Source: Mugil cephalus
Taxonomy: Eukaryota > Chordata > Actinopteri > Mugiliformes > Mugilidae
Assembly: GCF_022458985.1 (NCBI RefSeq)
Contig: NC_061790.1
Location: 276,001 to 340,000 of the forward strand
Length of the DNA stretch: 64,000 bases
Direction: 5' to 3'
The translations under genes and the position numbers were made by a program. Under the pieces are notes generated by a model, which saw only the letters and a list, made by a program, of their open reading frames with translations, did not search any database and had not been told where the DNA came from. Positions 86-53,871 of this stretch are shown here, piece by piece. Numbering within the stretch: the stretch's first letter is position 1; every line of letters begins with the position of its first letter.

Positions 86-253
<168 letters not shown>

Positions 254-1670: not shown

Positions 1671-2895
1671 CTGAAAGCTGAAGCTACACCAAACCAGTAG
1701 AAATGGCCGCCGTGAGAGAAGTGAGAAGCTCATCGCTGAGTCTGTAGTAACAGGAAATAAGTATAGTAAGTATAGTATAAGGACGGACAGTTAACAGGTG
1801 AACGTATTTGCTGTCCCGTTGTCCTCAGAGGCTAAAACAAACTTCACAGAGCAGAAGAATCAAAGCTGAAGGAGGAGACACATGTTCAGATAAAACTGGA
1901 GAGGTTTCTATTCAGAGCGACAGCGTCTCTTCAGTCCATCAGACGACGCTTTCATATCTTTACAAAGCTTCAGGACGACTGAAATAAAACCTGAATGGAG
2001 ACTTCTGAGCTTTAAAGTCATGAGAACAATTAAATTGTTGAAAAGCTTCAGTTTGTATTTTACAGGTTACACATTGTTGAGCTGTTCCACATCTGTTCAT
2101 TGCTTTTGTTTGTGTCTCCAGTTCCAAAAATAAGAGTTTATTTCATTAGAAAGAAAACAAAATAAATGTGCACATCTTTTAACTAATCCTTTGTTGAAAC
2201 ACCTTTTAATTTAATTTATTTATTTATTACAACACTCAGTTGTTGTGGGTAGGAATCTATTAACGTCTCCACTTGGCAATGTTTGTATGTTCTGATGTGA
2301 TAAAGAAAAAAATGTGAAAAAGTTTCTTTTTTAATTTGACAGAAAACTCAACATCTGAGAGTCGGCCTCAGAGAATCTGAGTCAAACTCTGCTGCAGTGC
2401 ATGCTAGGAACTGATAGTAAACATTTAAAGGAATAAATATGAAATAAATAACTTTTTAAATGTAAATAATGACATTGATAAGTAAACAAGTTCCTTTGAT
2501 ACGAGTTAATTTCCACTCAGCTCGTTCTAATGATTTAACTGCCGCCAATGTGTTTTTATTTATTAATACTTGTAATAAACCTGAATTGATGAACAGTTCC
2601 AGCTGTTGCTTATCTCATGGTGATTGAGTCTAAATGCAGACATGTCTCTATCAGCGACCTGATAACCAGGAGGACTCTGCTTCTCCTAAAATGGACTCTA
2701 ACAGCCAAAGGTCCTGAATCTGCCCTCGTGGTTCAGATTTAGTTTGTCTTCCCCTCGGCATTTATCTCCTAATTTGGTTTCCAGGGATCCTTTAAAAACG
2801 CCGCCTGCTCTGAGAAGGCTGCAGTTCCTCATCGGCATCAAGAAAAGTCTCTTCACTCGGGTTGTCCTGTCTTTAGACGTCCTCCGTCCTGCACC

Positions 2896-5800
2896 ATGGG
2901 TGACGCTCTGATGGCCGAGTTCGGGAAGGCGGCTCCTTTCTTGAGGAAGTCGGACAGGGAGCGCCTGGAGGCTCAGACCAGAGCATTTGACATCAAGACC
3001 GAGTGTTTCGTAGTCGACGATAAGGTCGAATATACAAAGGGACAGATCCAGAGTAAAGACGGAGGGATGGTGACGGTCAAGAAGGAGGATGGAACAACAG
3101 TGACGGTAAAGGAGACGGAGGTTCACCCCCAGAACCCGCCCAAGTTCGATAAAATCGAAGACATGGCGATGTTCACGTTCCTCCACGAGCCCGCCGTGCT
3201 GTTCAACCTCAAAGAGCGCTACGCCGCCTGGATGATCTACACCTACTCCGGCCTCTTCTGCGTCACCGTCAACCCCTACAAGTGGCTTCCTGTCTACGAC
3301 GCTGAGGTGGTGGGGGCCTACAGGGGCAAGAAGAGAAGCGAGGCGCCCCCTCATATCTTCTCCATTTCAGATAACGCCTACCAGTACATGCTGACTGACC
3401 GGGAGAACCAGTCCGTCCTCATCACCGGAGAATCCGGAGCAGGGAAGACAGTGAACACCAAGAGAGTCATCCAGTACTTCGCCAGCATCGCAGCAGTTGG
3501 AGGCGCAGGCAAGAAAGACAGCAGCAAAGGGACGCTGGAGGATCAGATCATCCAGGCCAACCCGGCGCTGGAGGCCTTCGGCAACGCCAAGACGCTGAGG
3601 AACGACAACTCCTCTCGCTTTGGAAAATTCATCCGAATTCACTTCGGCCCGAGCGGCAAACTGTCGTCTGCCGACATTGAGACGTACCTGCTGGAGAAGT
3701 CCCGCGTCACCTTTCAGCTCAAGGCAGAGAGGAACTACCACATCTTCTACCAGATCCTGTCCAATCAGAAGCCGGAGCTGCTGGACATGCTGCTGATCAC
3801 CAACAACCCCTACGACTACTCCTACATCTCCCAAGGAGAGGTGACGGTCGCCTCCATCAACGACTCAGAGGAGCTGATGGCCACCGACAGCGCCTTTGAC
3901 GTCCTCGGCTTTACTCTGGAGGAGAAGATGGGCGTCTACAAACTGACCGGAGCCATCATGCATTACGGGAACATGAAGTTTAAACAGAAGCAGCGTGAGG
4001 AACAAGCCGAGCCAGACGGGACCGAGGCCGCTGATAAATCCGCCTACCTGATGGGGCTGAACTCCGCTGACCTCATCAAAGGGTTGTGTCATCCCAGGGT
4101 CAAGGTGGGAAACGAATACGTCACCAAAGGCCAAAGCGTGGACCAGGTGTACTACTCCATCGGTGCTCTGGCGAAGTCAGTGTACGAGAAGATGTTCAAC
4201 TGGATGGTGGTGAGAATCAACCAGTCCCTGGACACGAAGCAGCATCGCCAGTACTTCATAGGAGTCCTCGACATCGCTGGGTTTGAGATATTTGACTTCA
4301 ACACCTTTGAGCAGCTGTGCATCAACTACACCAACGAGAAACTGCAACAGTTTTTCAACCATCACATGTTTGTTCTGGAGCAAGAGGAGTACAAAAAAGA
4401 AGGGATTGACTGGGAGTTCATCGACTTCGGGATGGACTTGCAGGCTTGCATTGACCTGATTGAGAAGCCTATGGGGATCCTGTCAATTCTGGAGGAAGAA
4501 TGCATGTTTCCCAAAGCGAGCGACCAGACCTTCAAGTCCAAGCTCTACGACAATCATCTGGGCAAGAACAAGATGTTTGAGAAGCCCAGAGCAGCAAAGG
4601 GGAAAGCAGAGGCTCATTTTGCCCTGGTTCACTATGCTGGCACCGTGGACTACAACATCGGGAACTGGCTGGTGAAGAACAAAGACCCTCTGAATGAAAC
4701 GGTGGTTGGCCTTTACCAGAAATCCTCTCTAAAGCTTCTCAGTCTGCTTTTTTCAAGCTATTCTGGAGACGGCGGAGACAAGGGAAGCGGCAAAGGAGCC
4801 AAAAAGAAAGGGTCCTCATTCCAGACAGTGTCGGCTCTTCACAGGGAAAACCTGAACAAGCTGATGACCAACCTGAAGACCACTCATCCCCACTTTGTCC
4901 GCTGTCTGATTCCTAATGAGAAGAAAACTCCAGGAGTCATGGACAACTGCCTCGTGATGCACCAGCTCCGCTGTAACGGTGTCCTGGAGGGCATCAGGAT
5001 CTGTAGGAAGGGTTTCCCAAACAGGGTGCTCTACGGTGACTTCAAGCAGCGCTACAGGATCCTGAACGCCTCAGCCATCCCAGAGGGTCAGTTCCTCGAC
5101 TGCAAGAAAAGCGCAGAAAAGTTGCTTGGCTCGCTTGACATCGACCACACTCAGTACAAGTTTGGACACACAAAAGTGTTCTTCAAGGCCGGGCTGCTGG
5201 GAACCCTAGAGGAGATGCGAGATGAGCAACTCTCTCGGATCATCACCAGGATCCAGGCCAATGCCCGGGCGTTGCTCATGAGGGAACAGTTCGCTAAGCT
5301 AGTGGAACGTAGAGATGCCCTGATGGTCATCCAGTGGAACCTCCGGTCTTTCCTGGGAGTGAAGAACTGGCCGTGGATGAAGCTCTTCTTCAAGATCAAA
5401 CCTCTGCTGAAGAGCGCTGAGTCTGAGAAGGAAATGGCCAACATGAAGGATGAGTTTAACAAGCTGAAGGAAGCTCTGGAGAAATCTGAGACCAGGCGGA
5501 AGGAGCTGGAGGAGAAAATCGTGACTCTTCTCCAAGAGAAGAACGATCTGACTTTGCAGATTCAGTCTGAACAGGACACACTGACGGACGCCGAGGAACG
5601 CTGCGAACAGCTGATAAAGAGCAAGATTCAGCTGGAGGCCAAACTGAAAGAGATGACGGAGAGACTGGAGGACGAAGAGGAGCTCAACGCAGATCTCACC
5701 GCAAAGAAACGAAAGCTGGAAGACGAATGCTCTGAGCTGAAGAAAGACATTGATGACCTGGAGCTAACTTTAGCCAAGGTGGAGAAGGAGAAACATGCTA

Positions 5801-8697
5801 CTGAGAATAAGGTGAAAAACCTGACAGAGGAGATGGCTTCGCAGGATGAAAACATCATGAAGCTGACCAAAGAGAAGAAGGCGTTGCAGGAGGCTCACCA
5901 GCAGACTTTGGATGACCTGCAGAGCGAAGAGGACAAAGCCAACAGTTTGACCAAAGCTAAAGCGAAGCTGGAGCAACAGGTGGACGATCTGGAGGGCTCA
6001 CTGGAGCAGGAGAAGAAGGTCAGGATGGACCTTGAGCGCTCGAAGAGAAAGCTGGAAGGAGACCTGAAACTAACCCAGGAGAGCTTGATGGACTTGGAGA
6101 ATGACAAGCAGCAGCTGGAGGAAAGACTCAAGAAGAAAGACTTTGAGATCAGCCAAATAAGTTCAAAACTGGAAGACGAGCAGGTCGTTTCCGTTCAGCT
6201 CCAGAAAAAGCTGAAAGAAAACCAGGCGAGGATCGAGGAGCTGGAGGAGGAGCTGGATGCCGAGCGAGCCGTCCGGGCCAAAGTGGAGAAGCAGCGCTCG
6301 GATCTTTCCCGTGAGCTGGAGGACATCAGCGAACGTCTGGAGGAAGCCGGCGGAGCCACGTCGGCTCAGGTGGAGCTGAATAAGAAAAGAGATGCTGAGT
6401 TTCAGAAGCTGCGCAGGGAGCTGGAGGAGTCCACCCTCCAACACGAGGCCACCGCCGCCTCGCTGAGGAAGAAACATGCCGACAGCGTGGCTGAGCTGGG
6501 AGAACAGATCGACAACCTGCAGCGTGTGAAGCAGAAGCTGGAGAAAGAAAAGAGTGAGTTCAAGCTGGAGCTAGACGACTTGACTTCCAACATGGAGCAC
6601 GTGGTGAAGACCAAGGCGAACATTGAGAAGATATGTCGAACAATGGAGGACAACATGAACGAGTACAAGAGTAAACATGAGGAGGCTCAGAGGACCATCA
6701 ACGACCTGACCACCCAGAGGGCAAAGCTGCTGACTGAGAACGGCGAGTTTGGACGTCAGCTGGAGGAGAAGGAGTGTCTGATTTCACAGCTGACCCGAGG
6801 GAAGACCTCCTACAACCAGCAGGTGGAAGATCTCCGCCGGCAGCTGGAGGAGGAGGTCAAGGCCAAGAATGCCCTCGCCCACGCTGTGCAATCAGCTCGA
6901 CATGACTGCGACCTGCTCCGAGAGCAGTTTGAAGAAGAGCAGGAAGCCAAGGCCGAGCTGCAGAGAGCTCTGTCCAAATCCAACACCGAGATCTCGGCCT
7001 GGAGGACCAAGTATGAAACGGATGGGATCCAGAGGACAGAGGAGCTGGAGGAGGCGAAGAAGAAGCTGGTTCAGAGGCTGCAGGAGGCAGAGGAGGCCAT
7101 CGAGGCCGTGAACGCAAAGTGTTCCTCCCTCGAGAAGACCAAACACCGACTCCAGAACGAGATCGAAGACCTGATGCTGGACCTGGAGAGATCCAACGCG
7201 GCTTCAGCAGCACTGGACAAGAAACAAAGAAGCTTTGACAAAGTCTTGGCTGAGTGGAAGCAGAAGTTTGAGGAGTCGCAGTGTGAACTAGAGGCCTCCC
7301 AGAAGGAGGCTCGGTCCCTGAGCACTGAACTCTTCAAACTGAGGAACGCCTACGAGGAGTCTCTGGATCAGCTCGAGACCATGAAGAGAGAGAACAAGAA
7401 CCTCCAGGAGGAAATCTCCGACCTCACGGACCAGCTCGGAGAAGGCGGAAGGAGCGCCCACGAGCTGGAGAAGATCCGGAAGCAGCTGGAACAAGAAAAG
7501 GCTGAACTCCAGTCGGCGCTGGAGGAGGCCGAGGGTTCCCTGGAGCACGAAGAGAGCAAGATCCTCCGAGCTCAGCTGGAGTTCAACCAGGTGAAGGCCG
7601 ACATGGAGCGCAAGCTGACCGAGAAGGACGAGGAGATGGAGCAGGCCAAGAGGAACTACCAGCGCATGATCGAGTCTCTTCAGTCCTCTCTGGAGTCTGA
7701 GACCAGGAGTCGAAACGAGGCCTTGAGAGTCAAGAAGAAGATGGAGGGTGACCTGAATGAGATGGAGATCCAGCTCAGCCAAGCCAACAGGCAAGCAGCC
7801 GATGCCCAGAAACAACTCAAGAGCCTCCAGTCATTTCTGAAGGACACTCAGCTGCAGCTGGACGACGCCCAACATGGCAACGATGACCTGAGGGAAAACA
7901 TCGGTCTGCTCGAACGCCGAAACAACCTGATCCAGGCGGAGCTCGAGGAGCTGAGAGCCGCCCTGGAGCAGACGGAGAGAAGTCGGAAACTGGCTGAACA
8001 GGAGCTGACCGACGCCACTGAGCGGATGCAACTGCTGCACTCCCAAAACACCAGCCTTATCAACCAGAAGAAGAAGCATGAGGCGGACCTCCTCCACCTG
8101 CAGAACGAGGCGGAGGAGGCCATTCAAGAGAACCGCAATGCTGAGGAGAAGGCTAAGAAGGCCATCACAGATGCAGCCATGATGGCCGAGGAGCTAAAGA
8201 AGGAGCAGGACACCAGCGCTCATCTGGAGCGCATGAAGAAGAACATGGAGCAGACCATCAAAGACCTGCAGCACCGCCTGGACGAGGCCGAGCAGATCGC
8301 CATGAAGGGAGGCAAAAAGCAGCTCCAGAAACTGGAGACTCGCATCCGAGAGCTGGAGAACGAGCTGGAGGCAGAGCAGAGGAGGGGGGCGGAGTCCATC
8401 AAAGGGGTTCGCAAGTACGAACGCCGGGTCAAAGAGCTCACCTACCAGACGGAGGAGGACCGCAAGAACATGGCTCGCCTCCAGGACCTGGTGGACAAGC
8501 TGCAGCTGAAGGTCAAGTCCTACAAACACATGGCGGAGGAGGCGGAGGAGGCGGCCAACACCAACATGACCAAACTCCGTAAGCTGCAGCACGAGCTGGA
8601 GGAGGCCGAGGAGAGGGCCGACATCGCAGAGTCCCAGGTCAACAAGCTGAGGGCCAAGACCCGGGACGGGTCCTCCAAGAAGGGCCTGGACGAGTGA
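2896..8697 (+). CDS. Sarcomeric myosin heavy chain, cardiac/slow (MYH6/7) type, intronless
   Basis: The frame encodes a full-length class II muscle myosin of 1933 residues, the ATP-driven thick-filament motor. The ATG sits in a good context (GCACCATGG), and the [10 protein letters not shown] start is typical of cardiac/slow myosins. Residues 178-185 are the P-loop GESGAGKT. Other motor landmarks follow: [10 protein letters not shown] (switch I), [11 protein letters not shown] (switch II), a Lys/Gly-rich loop 2, [20 protein letters not shown] (SH2/SH1 helices) and the IQ region. The invariant head-rod proline is residue 836. The rod to 1933 is one unbroken coiled coil. Length and domain order match the family. 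No stop, frameshift or intron was found in 5.8 kb, whereas vertebrate MYH genes have dozens of introns, so a retrocopy is likely. The intact frame argues for function. Assignment to the cardiac/slow clade rests on remembered sequences. Confidence 0.95.
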
Positions 8698-8751
8698 GGA
8701 CGTCCGGGACAAGCAGGTGGGTTCAGACTATAGATTGTTACCGACAAGACA

Positions 8752-8757
8752 AATAAA
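8752..8757 (+). terminator. Polyadenylation signal of the myosin gene
   Basis: AATAAA lies 55 bp after the myosin stop codon. A second AATAAA lies at 8830-8835. No poly(A) tract typical of a young retrocopy follows either one. Confidence 0.55.
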
Positions 8758-10693: not shown

Positions 10694-10904
10694 GGTTGAA
10701 AAGGTTATAATATCATTTGTGTAGTTTCTGATTTATTCAAAGAAATATTTACTTTATTGAACCTATAACCTCCTCACACTTTATAAGTTATGTTATAAAA
10801 TCAGATACAGGAGCTTTTATTTATTTAATTAAACTTAATGAAATCAGACATGATTGTGATTTAACAGGAACAGTTTAGTGAACATAGATTTATATGTTAT
10901 TGAT

Positions 10905-11312
10905 TTATTTGATTTAATATAGATTTATATGTTATTGATTTATTTTATTTTATATAGATTTATATGTTATTGATTTATTTTATTTAATATAGATTTATAT
11001 GTTATTGACTTATTTTATTTAATATAGATTTATATGTTATTGATTTATTTTATTTAATATAGATTTATATGTTATTGATTTATTTTTTTAATATAGATTT
11101 ATATGTTATTGACTATTATTTATATAGATTTATATGTTATTGACTTATTTTATTTAATATAGATTTATATGTTATTGATTTATTTTATTTAATACAGATT
11201 TATATGTTATTGATTTATTTTATTTAATACAGATTTATATGTTATTGATTTATTTTATTTAATACAGATTTATATGTTATTGATTTATTTTATTTAATAT
11301 AGATTTATTTGA
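10905..11312 (+). repeat. 35-bp AT-rich minisatellite
   Basis: About eleven to twelve copies of a 35-bp unit (core AGATTTATATGTTATTGA) with small indels. For example, one unit start at 10991 is followed by the next at 11026. Confidence 0.95.
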
Positions 11313-11360: not shown

Positions 11361-12059
<699 letters not shown>

Positions 12060-17202: not shown

Positions 17203-17585
17203 AACAGACCCAGGACTAGACCCAGGACTAGACCCAGGACCAGACCCAGGACCAGACCCAGGACCAGGACTAGACCCAGGACTAGACCCAGACCCAGGAC
17301 CAGACCCAGGACTAGACCCAGGACCAGGACTAGACCCAGGACCAGACCCAGGACTAGACCCAGGACTAGACCCAGACCCAGGACCAGACCCAGGACTAGA
17401 CCCAGACCCAGGACTAGACCCAGGACTAGACCCAGACCAGACCAGACCCAGGACCAGACCCAGGACTAGACCCAGGACTAGACCCAGGACTAGGACTAGA
17501 CCCAGGACTAGACCCAGACCCAGGACCAGACCCAGGACTAGACCCAGGACCAGGACTAGACCCAGGACCAGACCCAGGACTAGAC
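17203..17585 (+). repeat. GGACTAGACCCA 12-bp minisatellite in zbtb1 intron
   Basis: About 30 copies of a 12-bp unit, GGACTAGACCCA or GGACCAGACCCA, with 6-bp slips (CCAGAC, GGACCA). Frames on both strands give Pro-Gly-Leu-Asp or Gly-Ser-Ser-Pro repeats and are artefacts. Confidence 0.97.
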
Positions 17586-19690: not shown

Positions 19691-20164
19691 TAAGACGCTG
19701 ATTAACGGCGCGCGTGCACGCCACGCTCAGACAGACACGCGTGTGCAAGGCGTGCACGCGCGCCTGTGTGGGTGCGTGTGGGTGATGAGGGCGTGTGCGT
19801 GTTGACGATGGACGGAGGAGGCTGCAGAATCCGCGGGCGCGATGCGTCGTGCACGCGCGGAGCCGTGGTGTTGCTGGGAAGCGCGGGTGTCCGGGAATGC
19901 CCCCGCCCCACCCCCCAGAGCGCGCACGAGTGTGTGTCACAGGTGCAGCCTCACGACCTTCACTGAGGTCAGAGGTCACGCGTGCAGATGTTTACGTGCT
20001 AACGCTACTAACATGCTAACGCTGGTTGTTGACTTGGGGACATGATCCAGGTCTGGAACCAGCTGGAATAATTTATTACTGGAGGAAGTTGTTTTAGAGA
20101 ATGAATGAATGAATGAATAAAGAACAGCTGGTTGTTGACTTGGGGAGATGATCCACATTTTGGA

Positions 20165-20760
20165 ACAAGCTGTGATTGGTCCTCGTTAGTGTTTAAATGT
20201 AACCATAGCTGTGATTGGTCCTCGTTAGTGTTTAATGGAACCAGAGCTGTGATTGGTCCTCGTTAGTGTTTAAATGGAACCAGAGCTGTGATTGGTCCTC
20301 GTTAGTGTTTAATGGAACCAGAGCTGTGATTGGTCCTCGTTAGTGTTTAAATGGAACCAGAGCTGTGATTGGTCCTCGTTAGTGTTTAATGGAACCAGAG
20401 CTGTGATTGGTCCTCGTTAGTGTTTAAATGGAACCAGAGCTGTGATTGGTCCTCGTTAGTGTTTAAATGGAACCAGAGCTGTGATTGGTCCTCGTTAGTG
20501 TTTAAATGGAACCAGAGCTGTGATTGGTCCTCGTTAGTGTTTAAATGGAACCAGAGCTGTGATTGGTCCTCGTTAGTGTTTAATGTAACCAGAGCTGTGA
20601 TTGGTCCTCGTTATTGTTTAATGTAACCAGAGCTGTGATTGGTCCTCGTTAGTGTTTAAATGTAACCAGAGCTGTGATTGGTCCTCGTTAGTGTTTAATG
20701 GAACCAGAGCTGTGATTGGTCCTCGTTAGTGTTAAATGGAACCAGAGCTGTGATTGGTTG
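20165..20760 (+). repeat. 38/39-bp minisatellite in zbtb25 intron 1
   Basis: Sixteen copies of a 38- or 39-bp unit (core AGCTGTGATTGGTCCTCGTT) differ mostly by TTTAA versus TTTAAA and GGAACC versus GTAACC. Every unit carries GATTGG, an inverted CCAAT box. The last unit is degenerate. Confidence 0.97.
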
Positions 20761-41500: not shown

Positions 41501-44500
41501 AGAATGAAGCAGGAGGAGCTGGCTGACTGTCTTCAGAGCGGTAAGAGGATTTAACAGCTTTAAATGGATGGAAAGAGGAAATGGAGGAAACATGGGACAA
41601 GTTTACATTTCTACACTCTGATGTTAATATGATGCAAACATCTGAATGAGATCTATGAATTCTACTGGACTGAAAATAGTCACATGTAAATGTTATTAAA
41701 ATGAATGAGTTCACTGATTAATTATATTTCTTGTTTGTTCAGGAACTGGTGCTGCACAGTGTGGACGTAAAGTTAAATCTAGTCTGAAGAAGAAGTTCCA
41801 GTGTGTGTTTGAAGGGATTGCTAAAGCTGGAAACTCAACCCTTCTGAATGAGATCTACACAGAGCTCTACATCACAGAGGGAGGGACTGCAGAGGTCAAT
41901 GATGAACATGAGGTCAGACAGATTGAAAAATCATTCATGAAACCACACAGACCCGAATCTATCATCAGACAAGAAGACCTCTTTAAAGCCTCACCTGGAA
42001 GACATGGACCAATCAGAAGAGTGATGACAAAGGGAGTGGCTGGCATTGGGAAAACTGTCTTAACACAGAAGTTCACTCTGGACTGGGCTGAAGACAAAGC
42101 CAACCAGGACATCCTCTTCATATTTCCATTGACTTTCAGAGAGCTGAATGTGGTGAAAGAGAGAAAGTTCAGCTTGGTGGAACTTGTTCATCACTTCTTC
42201 ACTGAAACCAAAGAAGCAGGAATCTGCAGCTTTGAAGACTTCCAGGTTGTGTTTATCTTTGACGGTCTGGATGAGTGTCGACTTCCTCTGGACTTCCACA
42301 AGACTGAGATCCTGACTGATGTTACAGAGTCCACCTCAGTGGATGTGCTGCTGACAAACCTCATCAGGGGGAAACTGCTTCCCTCTGCTCGCCTCTGGAT
42401 AACCACACGACCTGCAGCAGCCAATCAGATCCCTCCTGAGTGTGTTGACATGGTGACAGAGGTCAGAGGGTTCACTGACCCCCAGAAGGAGGAGTACTTC
42501 AGGAAGAGGTTCAGAGATGAGGAGCAGGCCAGCAGGATCATCTCCCACATCAAGACATCACGAAGCCTCCACATCATGTGTCACATCCCAGTCTTCTGCT
42601 GGATCACTGCTACAGTTCTGGAGGATGTGTTGGAAACCAGAGAGGGAGGAGAGCTGCCCAAGACCCTGACTGAGATGTACATCCATTACCTGGTGGTTCA
42701 GGCCAAAGTCAAGAAGGTCAAGTATGATGGAGGAGCTGAGACAGATCCACTCTGGAGTCCAGAGAGCAGGAAGATGATTGAGTCTCTGGGAAAACTGGCT
42801 TTTGATCAGCTGCAGAAAGGAAACCTGATCTTCTATGAATCAGACCTGACAGAGTGTGGCATCGATATCAGAGCAGCCTCATTGTCCTCAGGAGTGTTCA
42901 CACAGATCTTTAAAGAGGAGAGAGGCCTGTACCAGGACAAGGTGTTCTGCTTCGTCCATCTGAGCATTCAGGAGTTTCTGGCTGCTCTTCATGTCCATCT
43001 GACCTTCATCAACTCTAGAGTCAACCTGATGAAAAAAAGACATACTATGTCATGCTGGCCTGGATGGTTTAACAGATCCAAACTACCACATCTCCATCAG
43101 AGTGCTGTGGACAAGGCCTTACAGAGTCCAAATGGACACCTGGACTTGTTCCTCCGCTTCCTCCTGGGTCTTTCACTGCAGACCAATCAGACTCTCCTAC
43201 GAGGCCTGCTGACACAGACAGGAAGTAGCTCACAGACCAATCAGGAAACAGTCCAGTACATCAAGGAGAAGATCAGTGAGAATCTGTCTGCAGAGAGAAG
43301 CATCAATCTGTTCCACTGTCTGAATGAACTGAATGATGGTTCTCTAGTGAAGGAGATCCAACAGTCCCTGAGATCAGGACGTCTCTCCACAGATAAACTG
43401 TCTCCTGCTCAGTGGTCAGCTCTGGGCTTCATCTTAATGTCATCAAGAGAAGATCTGGATGAGTTTGACCTGAAGAAATACTCTGCTTCAGAGGAGGCTC
43501 TTCTGAGGCTGCTGCCAGTGGTCAAAGCCTCCAACAAAGCTCTGTAGGTGGATTTAGGAACTATTTGAAACATGATTCATTCAGTAAATGACAAATAAAA
43601 CATTTGATGTTGATTCTTCTTCAGGCTGAGCAGCTGTAACCTCTCAGAGAGAAGCTGTGAAGCTCTGTCCTCAGTTCTCAGCTCCCAGTCCTCCAGTCTG
43701 AGAGAGCTGGACCTGAGTAACAACAACCTGCAGGATTCAGGAGTGAAGCTGCTGTCTGCTGGACTGGAGAGTCCTCACTGTAAACTGGAAACTCTCAGGT
43801 CAGGATACAGCTGCTTGTTGATCAGTTATATCCTGATTTAGGTTCATGTTGGTACAAGTTCAACATGTGGAGGATTTTCCTTCTTCTTCTTGAGTTTCTG
43901 ATATGTTTCTATCTCCAGTCTGTCAGGTTGTCTGATCACAGAGGAAGGATGTTCTTCTCTGGCCTCAGCTCTGAGCTCCAAACCCTCCCATCTGAGAGAG
44001 CTGGACCTGAGCTACAACCATCCAGGAGTCAAGGGAGTGGAGCTGCTGTCTGCTGGACTGGAGGATCCACTCTGGAAACTGGAAACTCTCAGGTCAGGAT
44101 TCAGCTGCTTGTTAAGTCAGGTGCTGTGTGATTTACTACCATGTTCATGATGTCATATATCACTTTCTGTGAAATCTCTTTTAATATATTAAAACAACAA
44201 ACCTTAGGTCTCTACGTCCCTTATAATTATCACAAACTAGCTGAACGTTAGCTTTAGTTGGGGGTACTTGTCATAATAGAGAGTGCTCCAGAAACAAGTT
44301 AAAAATCTGATTGAAATTGCTGGGTTAGTGTTCAACATTTTCTATAATTACACAGATTCCGAAGGGAATATCCCCCAAATCATGCAATAATTATAAGCCT
44401 GTTGCATTTACCTCCTTAATTTTGAAAACCTATGAAAACCTAAAGGATTTTAAAGCCTGATCTTTTCAGTGTGGTCCATCGATTTAGTCCCACTGTCAAA

Positions 44501-52420: not shown

Positions 52421-53871
<1,451 letters not shown>

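Follow-up and report, generated by a model that had tools for sequence, protein, structure and literature searches.

How does a vertebrate come to encode an entire muscle myosin heavy chain in one exon? The question is raised by a 64,000-nucleotide stretch of the Mugil cephalus genome (RefSeq assembly GCF_022458985.1, contig NC_061790.1, positions 276,001 to 340,000 of the forward strand; hereafter the window), in which an open reading frame (ORF) at 2896..8697 (+) encodes a sarcomeric myosin heavy chain free of introns, as against the ~38 introns usual for the myosin heavy chain (MYH) family. Here we argue, with a probability of roughly 0.87, that this ORF is fish myh6 (amhc), which became intronless by way of an ancient reverse-transcribed copy, would have a compact promoter of its own and would encode the motor of the atrium.

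The ORF starts with ATG and runs for 1933 codons to its sole, terminal stop; when its 5802 bases were shuffled as mononucleotides 200 times and read in three frames, the longest open run had a mean of 139 and a maximum of 258 codons. The predicted product (222.77 kDa, isoelectric point (pI) 5.57) carries three Pfam domains in order and near full length, Myosin_N (32-76), Myosin_head (88-764) and Myosin_tail_1 (844-1921), all with matches exceeding the curated cut-offs. Four motor motifs occur once each, at residues 178 (GESGAGKT), 236, 459 (DIAGFE) and 693, which we take to be the P-loop, a switch motif, switch II and the SH2-SH1 helix, respectively. Third codon positions of the ORF are 76% G+C, and the overall G+C of positions 1-2000 of the window is 43%. 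Because a single chain unites Myosin_N, the motor and a long coiled-coil tail, the ORF is a sarcomeric class II myosin heavy chain. A preliminary description of this DNA had placed a full-length single-exon myosin here, and both the claim and its coordinates hold, given the one 1933-codon frame, the three domains and the motor motifs.

The decisive evidence on which gene this is came from published work on fish systematics. Li et al. (2007) searched the zebrafish and fugu genomes for exons that are single-copy and longer than 800 bp, and myh6 was among the ten markers amplified (PMC1838417). The myh6 primers of Table 1 in that paper have one match each in the window, with 3 mismatches for F459, 3 for F507, 0 for R1325 and 0 for R1322, under a tolerance of at most 3 mismatches at which 0 chance matches are expected in the window. 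F459 and F507 start at positions 459 and 507 of the coding sequence (CDS), exactly as numbered, and R1325 and R1322 start at 1322 and 1319, which is 3 bases (one codon) short of the published numbering. Ryanodine receptor genes are split into a great number of exons. The RYR3_F15 marker in the same primer table (PMC1838417) appears to be numbered within its exon, from which it would follow that the zebrafish myh6 exon starts at the start codon and continues uninterrupted past position 1325.

The zebrafish amhc morpholino is the reverse complement of the start region of that gene (PMC6329608), and the first eight residues encoded at its target are those of the window ORF. Across the 30 whole codons that primers and morpholino together share with the ORF, 9 differences are synonymous and 0 are nonsynonymous; incomplete codons at the ends of these oligonucleotides were omitted, and one of them, at the F459 start, differs in the third position. 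Primer codons are biased to conserved sites, and the comparison is supportive and provides no rate estimate. Black rockfish MYH6 (Ss MYH6) has a CDS of 5802 bp, a mass of 222.63 kDa and a pI of 5.62 (PMC8228858 Table 1), and the length of 5802 bp, shared with the window CDS, is unique to MYH6 among the 27 MYH rows of that table. In the same table the rows for Myo10 and Ss MYH14 are identical (5763 bp, 220.93 kDa, 5.57), likely a mistake in the table; no other row duplicates that of MYH6. Expression of black rockfish MYH6 peaks in heart (PMC8228858), and in zebrafish amhc/myh6 is atrial, weak atrium mutants bearing frameshifts in amhc (PMC7717946).

The window gene is thus like fish myh6/amhc (zebrafish weak atrium, rockfish Ss MYH6) in its forward-primer positions, CDS length, first eight residues and unbroken marker exon, and shows no difference in kind, only the synonymous changes given above and one codon fewer between the primers. 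Judged from these correspondences it is very probably the myh6 (amhc) of Mugil cephalus, encoding the cardiac myosin heavy chain of the atrium. The gene is real, intact and very probably functional. The earlier suggestion of a functional gene with its own muscle type gains support in so far as orthology to amhc/myh6 points to the atrium, where by analogy we would expect the gene to be expressed in Mugil cephalus.

Comparison with solved structures placed the ORF among vertebrate muscle myosins. Among the best 60 of 152 whole-chain matches, Myosin-7 scored up to 3514 bits, followed by Myosin-4 (3271), invertebrate striated-muscle chains (up to 2255) and Myosin-11 with other smooth and non-muscle chains (at most 1361), so that the ORF is nearer to vertebrate muscle MYH than to smooth or non-muscle MYH (3514 vs 1361 bits). 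The Myosin-6 chains among these 60 matches are motor fragments of 772 residues, and the rod was compared solely through the full-length score. Over residues 1-400 the scores were 765 bits for Myosin-6, 756 for Myosin-7, 704 for fast skeletal myosin and 499 for a striated-muscle myosin that we take to be from scallop; identities over the N-terminal 400 residues were 337/396 with Myosin-6 (8zbn) and 339/400 with Myosin-7 (8q6t). The window gene therefore shares with Myosin-6 and Myosin-7, the alpha and beta cardiac myosins, the domain plan and ~85% identity across the first 400 residues. It differs from them in gene structure, since the human cardiac MYH genes are tandem and multi-exon, with miR-208a sitting in a MYH6 intron, whereas the window gene is one exon. 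No second MYH was noticed among the window ORFs of at least 150 aa, and the ORF had no relative among viral contigs (3 pattern matches) or genome contigs (12 pattern matches).

An intact full-length copy without introns had been called unusual in the preliminary description. For fishes this is not supported: part of myh6 is a long-exon marker in zebrafish, fugu, bowfin, paddlefish and gar, and Betancur-R. et al. (2013) list 874 myh6 sequences, of type "Nuclear exon", among 1416 terminals (PMC3644299). The ten markers of Li et al. were sequenced in 14 taxa, bowfin (Amia calva) included (PMC1838417). The appendix of Broughton et al. (2013) has myh6 for 45 of its 61 taxa, newly sequenced in Polyodon and Lepisosteus platostomus and drawn from databases for L. 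osseus, Amia, coelacanth and four tetrapods, although for the coelacanth and tetrapods a database entry is uninformative on introns (PMC3682800). Since the marker was sequenced as a long exon across ray-finned fishes, the intron loss in the marker stretch is ancient: it is older than the bowfin-teleost split and, provided that the Polyodon record is orthologous, probably older than the paddlefish split. The claim that the copy is not recent is thereby supported, the intronless marker stretch being common to ray-finned fishes. Part of the long myh6 exon was already known as a marker, and the lack of introns is ordinary for this gene, an old shared feature and no oddity of the Mugil genome.

The remaining sarcomeric MYH genes of fishes, in slow and fast clusters, belong to the same protein family but differ in bearing introns, as can be judged from rockfish gene spans and lamprey exon counts. 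Each of the 15 rockfish MYH genes that lie in tandem covers at least 9.96 kb (arithmetic on PMC8228858 Table 2), and three lamprey fast MYH genes are given with 39 coding exons each; by our computation, an MYH with 39 coding exons would place ~5.7 introns in an 867-bp stretch. Evidently, the other fish MYH genes retained their introns.

The sequence directly upstream of the ORF has the appearance of a muscle promoter. The 400 bp 5' of the ATG hold 2 perfect CArG boxes against 0.03 expected, a number reached by none of 2000 dinucleotide shuffles, although the boxes had been spotted by eye ahead of counting and the count was not blind; 3 such boxes occur in the whole window, 2 of them here. GATA sites number 4 in the same 400 bp, where 0.99 would be expected (shuffle P 0.013, with 9 motifs examined in all). 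This region lacks TATAWA and AGGTCA and holds a single E-box, with no enrichment; the TATA-like pattern at 2791 is looser than TATAWA and was picked after inspection of the sequence. In cardiac promoters SRF acts together with GATA factors, and we regard this compact CArG/GATA/TATA-like region as a candidate atrial promoter. Transcription directed by the TATA-like box would imply a 5' untranslated region (UTR) of ~70 nt. An acceptor-like CTTTAG ends at 2876, upstream of the ATG, but a spliced 5' UTR is less likely because of the TATA-like box at 2791 and the CArG boxes nearby. Candidate donor-like strings are found at 8714 (3' of the stop) and at 5809 (within the CDS).

As to how the introns were lost, descent of the gene from an ancient reverse-transcribed copy is the likeliest course and would account for its intronless CDS. 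A reverse-transcribed MYH copy would have been made deep in ray-finned fish history, before the bowfin-teleost split and probably before the paddlefish split, and would have settled between pak6-like and InaF-motif genes, where it would be transcribed from the compact CArG, GATA and TATA-like promoter directly upstream of it, with its end at the nearby AATAAA; the product would be a conventional muscle myosin driving atrial contraction. A rival on mechanism only is that an ancestral multi-exon MYH at this locus was overwritten through recombination with its own complementary DNA (cDNA). Loss in place would agree with a compact muscle-type promoter region lying directly upstream, as if inherited, and with the want of retroposition marks: the 1 kb past the stop has no A run as long as 8, and exact direct repeats shared by the 500-bp flanks reach 10 bp at most, a length equalled or exceeded in 16% of 300 shuffles. 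The earlier observation that no poly(A) tail or target duplication remains therefore stood up to inspection of the flanks. Such marks are, however, expected to decay in an insertion of this age, and with them gone the case for retroposition depends on the lack of introns and on where the gene lies. The upstream kinase end matches PAK6 (E 1.4e-13) better than PAK4 (3.4e-11), and the downstream InaF-motif ORF is presumably inafm2-like. Human PAK6 and INAFM2 are near each other on chromosome 15. The human cardiac MYH genes are in tandem on chromosome 14 (PMC3716903), which would speak against an ancestral MYH between these flanks; the PAK6-like and InaF-motif neighbours fit an insertion between pak6 and inafm2. 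Loss in place would, moreover, demand that ~38 introns went at once while promoter and locus were kept, a stringent requirement. We consider it likely that the reverse-transcribed copy was inserted at a new place, and unlikely that an old locus was rewritten.

A young, lineage-specific retrocopy of some intron-bearing fish MYH, distinct from the usual myh6, would be expected to have an intact 5.8-kb ORF such as the one found here. Against such an origin, the forward primers fall at exactly the base given for them in the fish myh6 exon, the CDS has the length of rockfish MYH6, relatives carry the same uninterrupted stretch, the 30 compared codons differ synonymously only, and poly(A) and target duplication are absent, so that a young copy is very improbable. 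Still harder to credit is a cDNA contaminant or assembly artefact, which a CDS without introns could suggest, because sequence unlike messenger RNA adjoins both ends (CArG, GATA and TATA-like elements before, no poly(A) after), other genes are present further out on either side, and myh6 has been sequenced as one exon in fishes throughout the ray-finned group.

Several observations nevertheless weigh against identifying the ORF as an intronless, retroposed atrial myh6, in addition to the conserved-site bias of the primer codons. The zebrafish amhc morpholino target has no match in the window when as many as 3 mismatches are allowed, because 4 of its 25 bases differ, all of them synonymously. 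The lead of Myosin-6 over Myosin-7 in the N-terminal comparison is 9 bits only, and the structure matches leave MYH6 versus MYH7 undecided. MEF2, M-CAT, NKE and TBX sites were all absent from the 400 bp 5' of the ATG, and retroposition is backed neither by poly(A) nor by a significant target duplication. The marker is missing from 16 of the 61 taxa of Broughton et al., which the paper treats as missing data: two chondrichthyans, two lungfishes, two bichirs, two sturgeons, five bonytongue-group fishes, and an eel, an anchovy and a knifefish (PMC3682800). Finally, the marker covers ~870 of 5802 bp, and uninterrupted sequence in other fishes is established for that stretch only; an intron-bearing orthologue in close relatives, named in the preliminary description as what would speak against a retrogene, is accordingly contradicted within the marker stretch and not beyond it.

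The features of the locus are collected in the table below. The two zinc-finger ORFs are presumably zbtb1 and zbtb25. The InaF-motif (TRP-interacting helix) ORF has Thr/Gly-rich repeats beyond the motif. Further out, a 536-aa ORF at 41937-43547 (+) with NACHT, NOD2_WH and NLRC4_HD2 domains (Pfam) is an NLR-type gene or part of one, and a 340-aa Tc1-like transposase ORF at 52482-53504 (-) with HTH_SB, HTH_Tnp_Tc3_2 and DDE_3 domains (Pfam) is possibly a recent DNA transposon, since it is open. Minisatellites are located at 10884-11308 (35-bp unit, 12.3 copies, 94% matches), 17206-17585 and 20161-20758 (39-bp unit, 15.6 copies, 96% matches). The 64-kb window had no Rfam family at gathering score and no tRNA gene in a search with the bacterial code.

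Table. Position and evidence of the features located in the window (a point marks features without assigned strand)
Feature	Position	Strand	Evidence or remark
PAK-family kinase gene end, last 48 residues and stop, best match PAK6	107..253	+	upstream flank
Four GATA-type sites, starts 2610, 2648, 2660, 2762	2610..2767	.	motif count
Perfect CArG (SRF-type) box CCTAAAATGG	2685..2694	.	-211 from ATG; motif count
Perfect CArG box CCTAATTTGG	2768..2777	.	-128 from ATG; abuts GATA site 2762-2767
TATA-like box TTTAAAAA	2791..2798	+	-105 from ATG; loose pattern
Complete intronless CDS, sarcomeric myosin heavy chain, very probably fish myh6/amhc type, 1933 aa	2896..8697	+	ORF list, translation, Pfam, primer sites
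Equivalent of published fish myh6 phylogenetic marker (primers F459/R1325)	3354..4217	+	primer matches
First AATAAA polyadenylation signal	8752..8757	+	55 bp past stop codon
InaF-motif ORF, downstream flanking gene	11577..12059	+	E 1.4e-12
BTB zinc-finger ORF, 681 aa	14663-16708	-	Pfam
Second zinc-finger ORF, 364 aa	21592-22686	+	Pfam

Among the titles and abstract starts that searches of open-licence literature listed, none called fish myh6 intronless or a retrogene, and none treated the deep origin of the intronless atrial myosin. The term "myosin" is absent from the main texts of a study of single-exon genes in sea bass (PMC8207432) and of one on zebrafish retrogenes (PMC3091775). Of other candidate papers, PMC10297432 used the word "intronless" for rhodopsin, PMC5700196 concerned scallop opsins, and PMC11091069 proved to hold a mouse gene table. 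A single-exon copy that assumed the job of a multi-exon gene is described for amphioxus SYCP1 (PMC5803294), a likeness in retrogene replacement that concerns another gene.

The apparent genome oddity is thus resolved, and there is nothing strange about the Mugil cephalus genome. The question raised instead is how and when ray-finned fishes came to power the atrium with an intronless myosin. We would give even odds to the fuller proposition that the atrial motor of ray-finned fishes, a group with about half of the vertebrate species, is a retrogene, presumably more than 300 million years old, which settled between pak6 and inafm2, gained its own compact GATA-SRF promoter and became responsible for atrial contraction, fishes and mammals having reached an atrial myosin along different genomic routes. 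The coding sequence of an intronless atrial myosin could be neither alternatively spliced nor host to intronic microRNAs, and the deep origin of this myosin is the part worth specialist attention.

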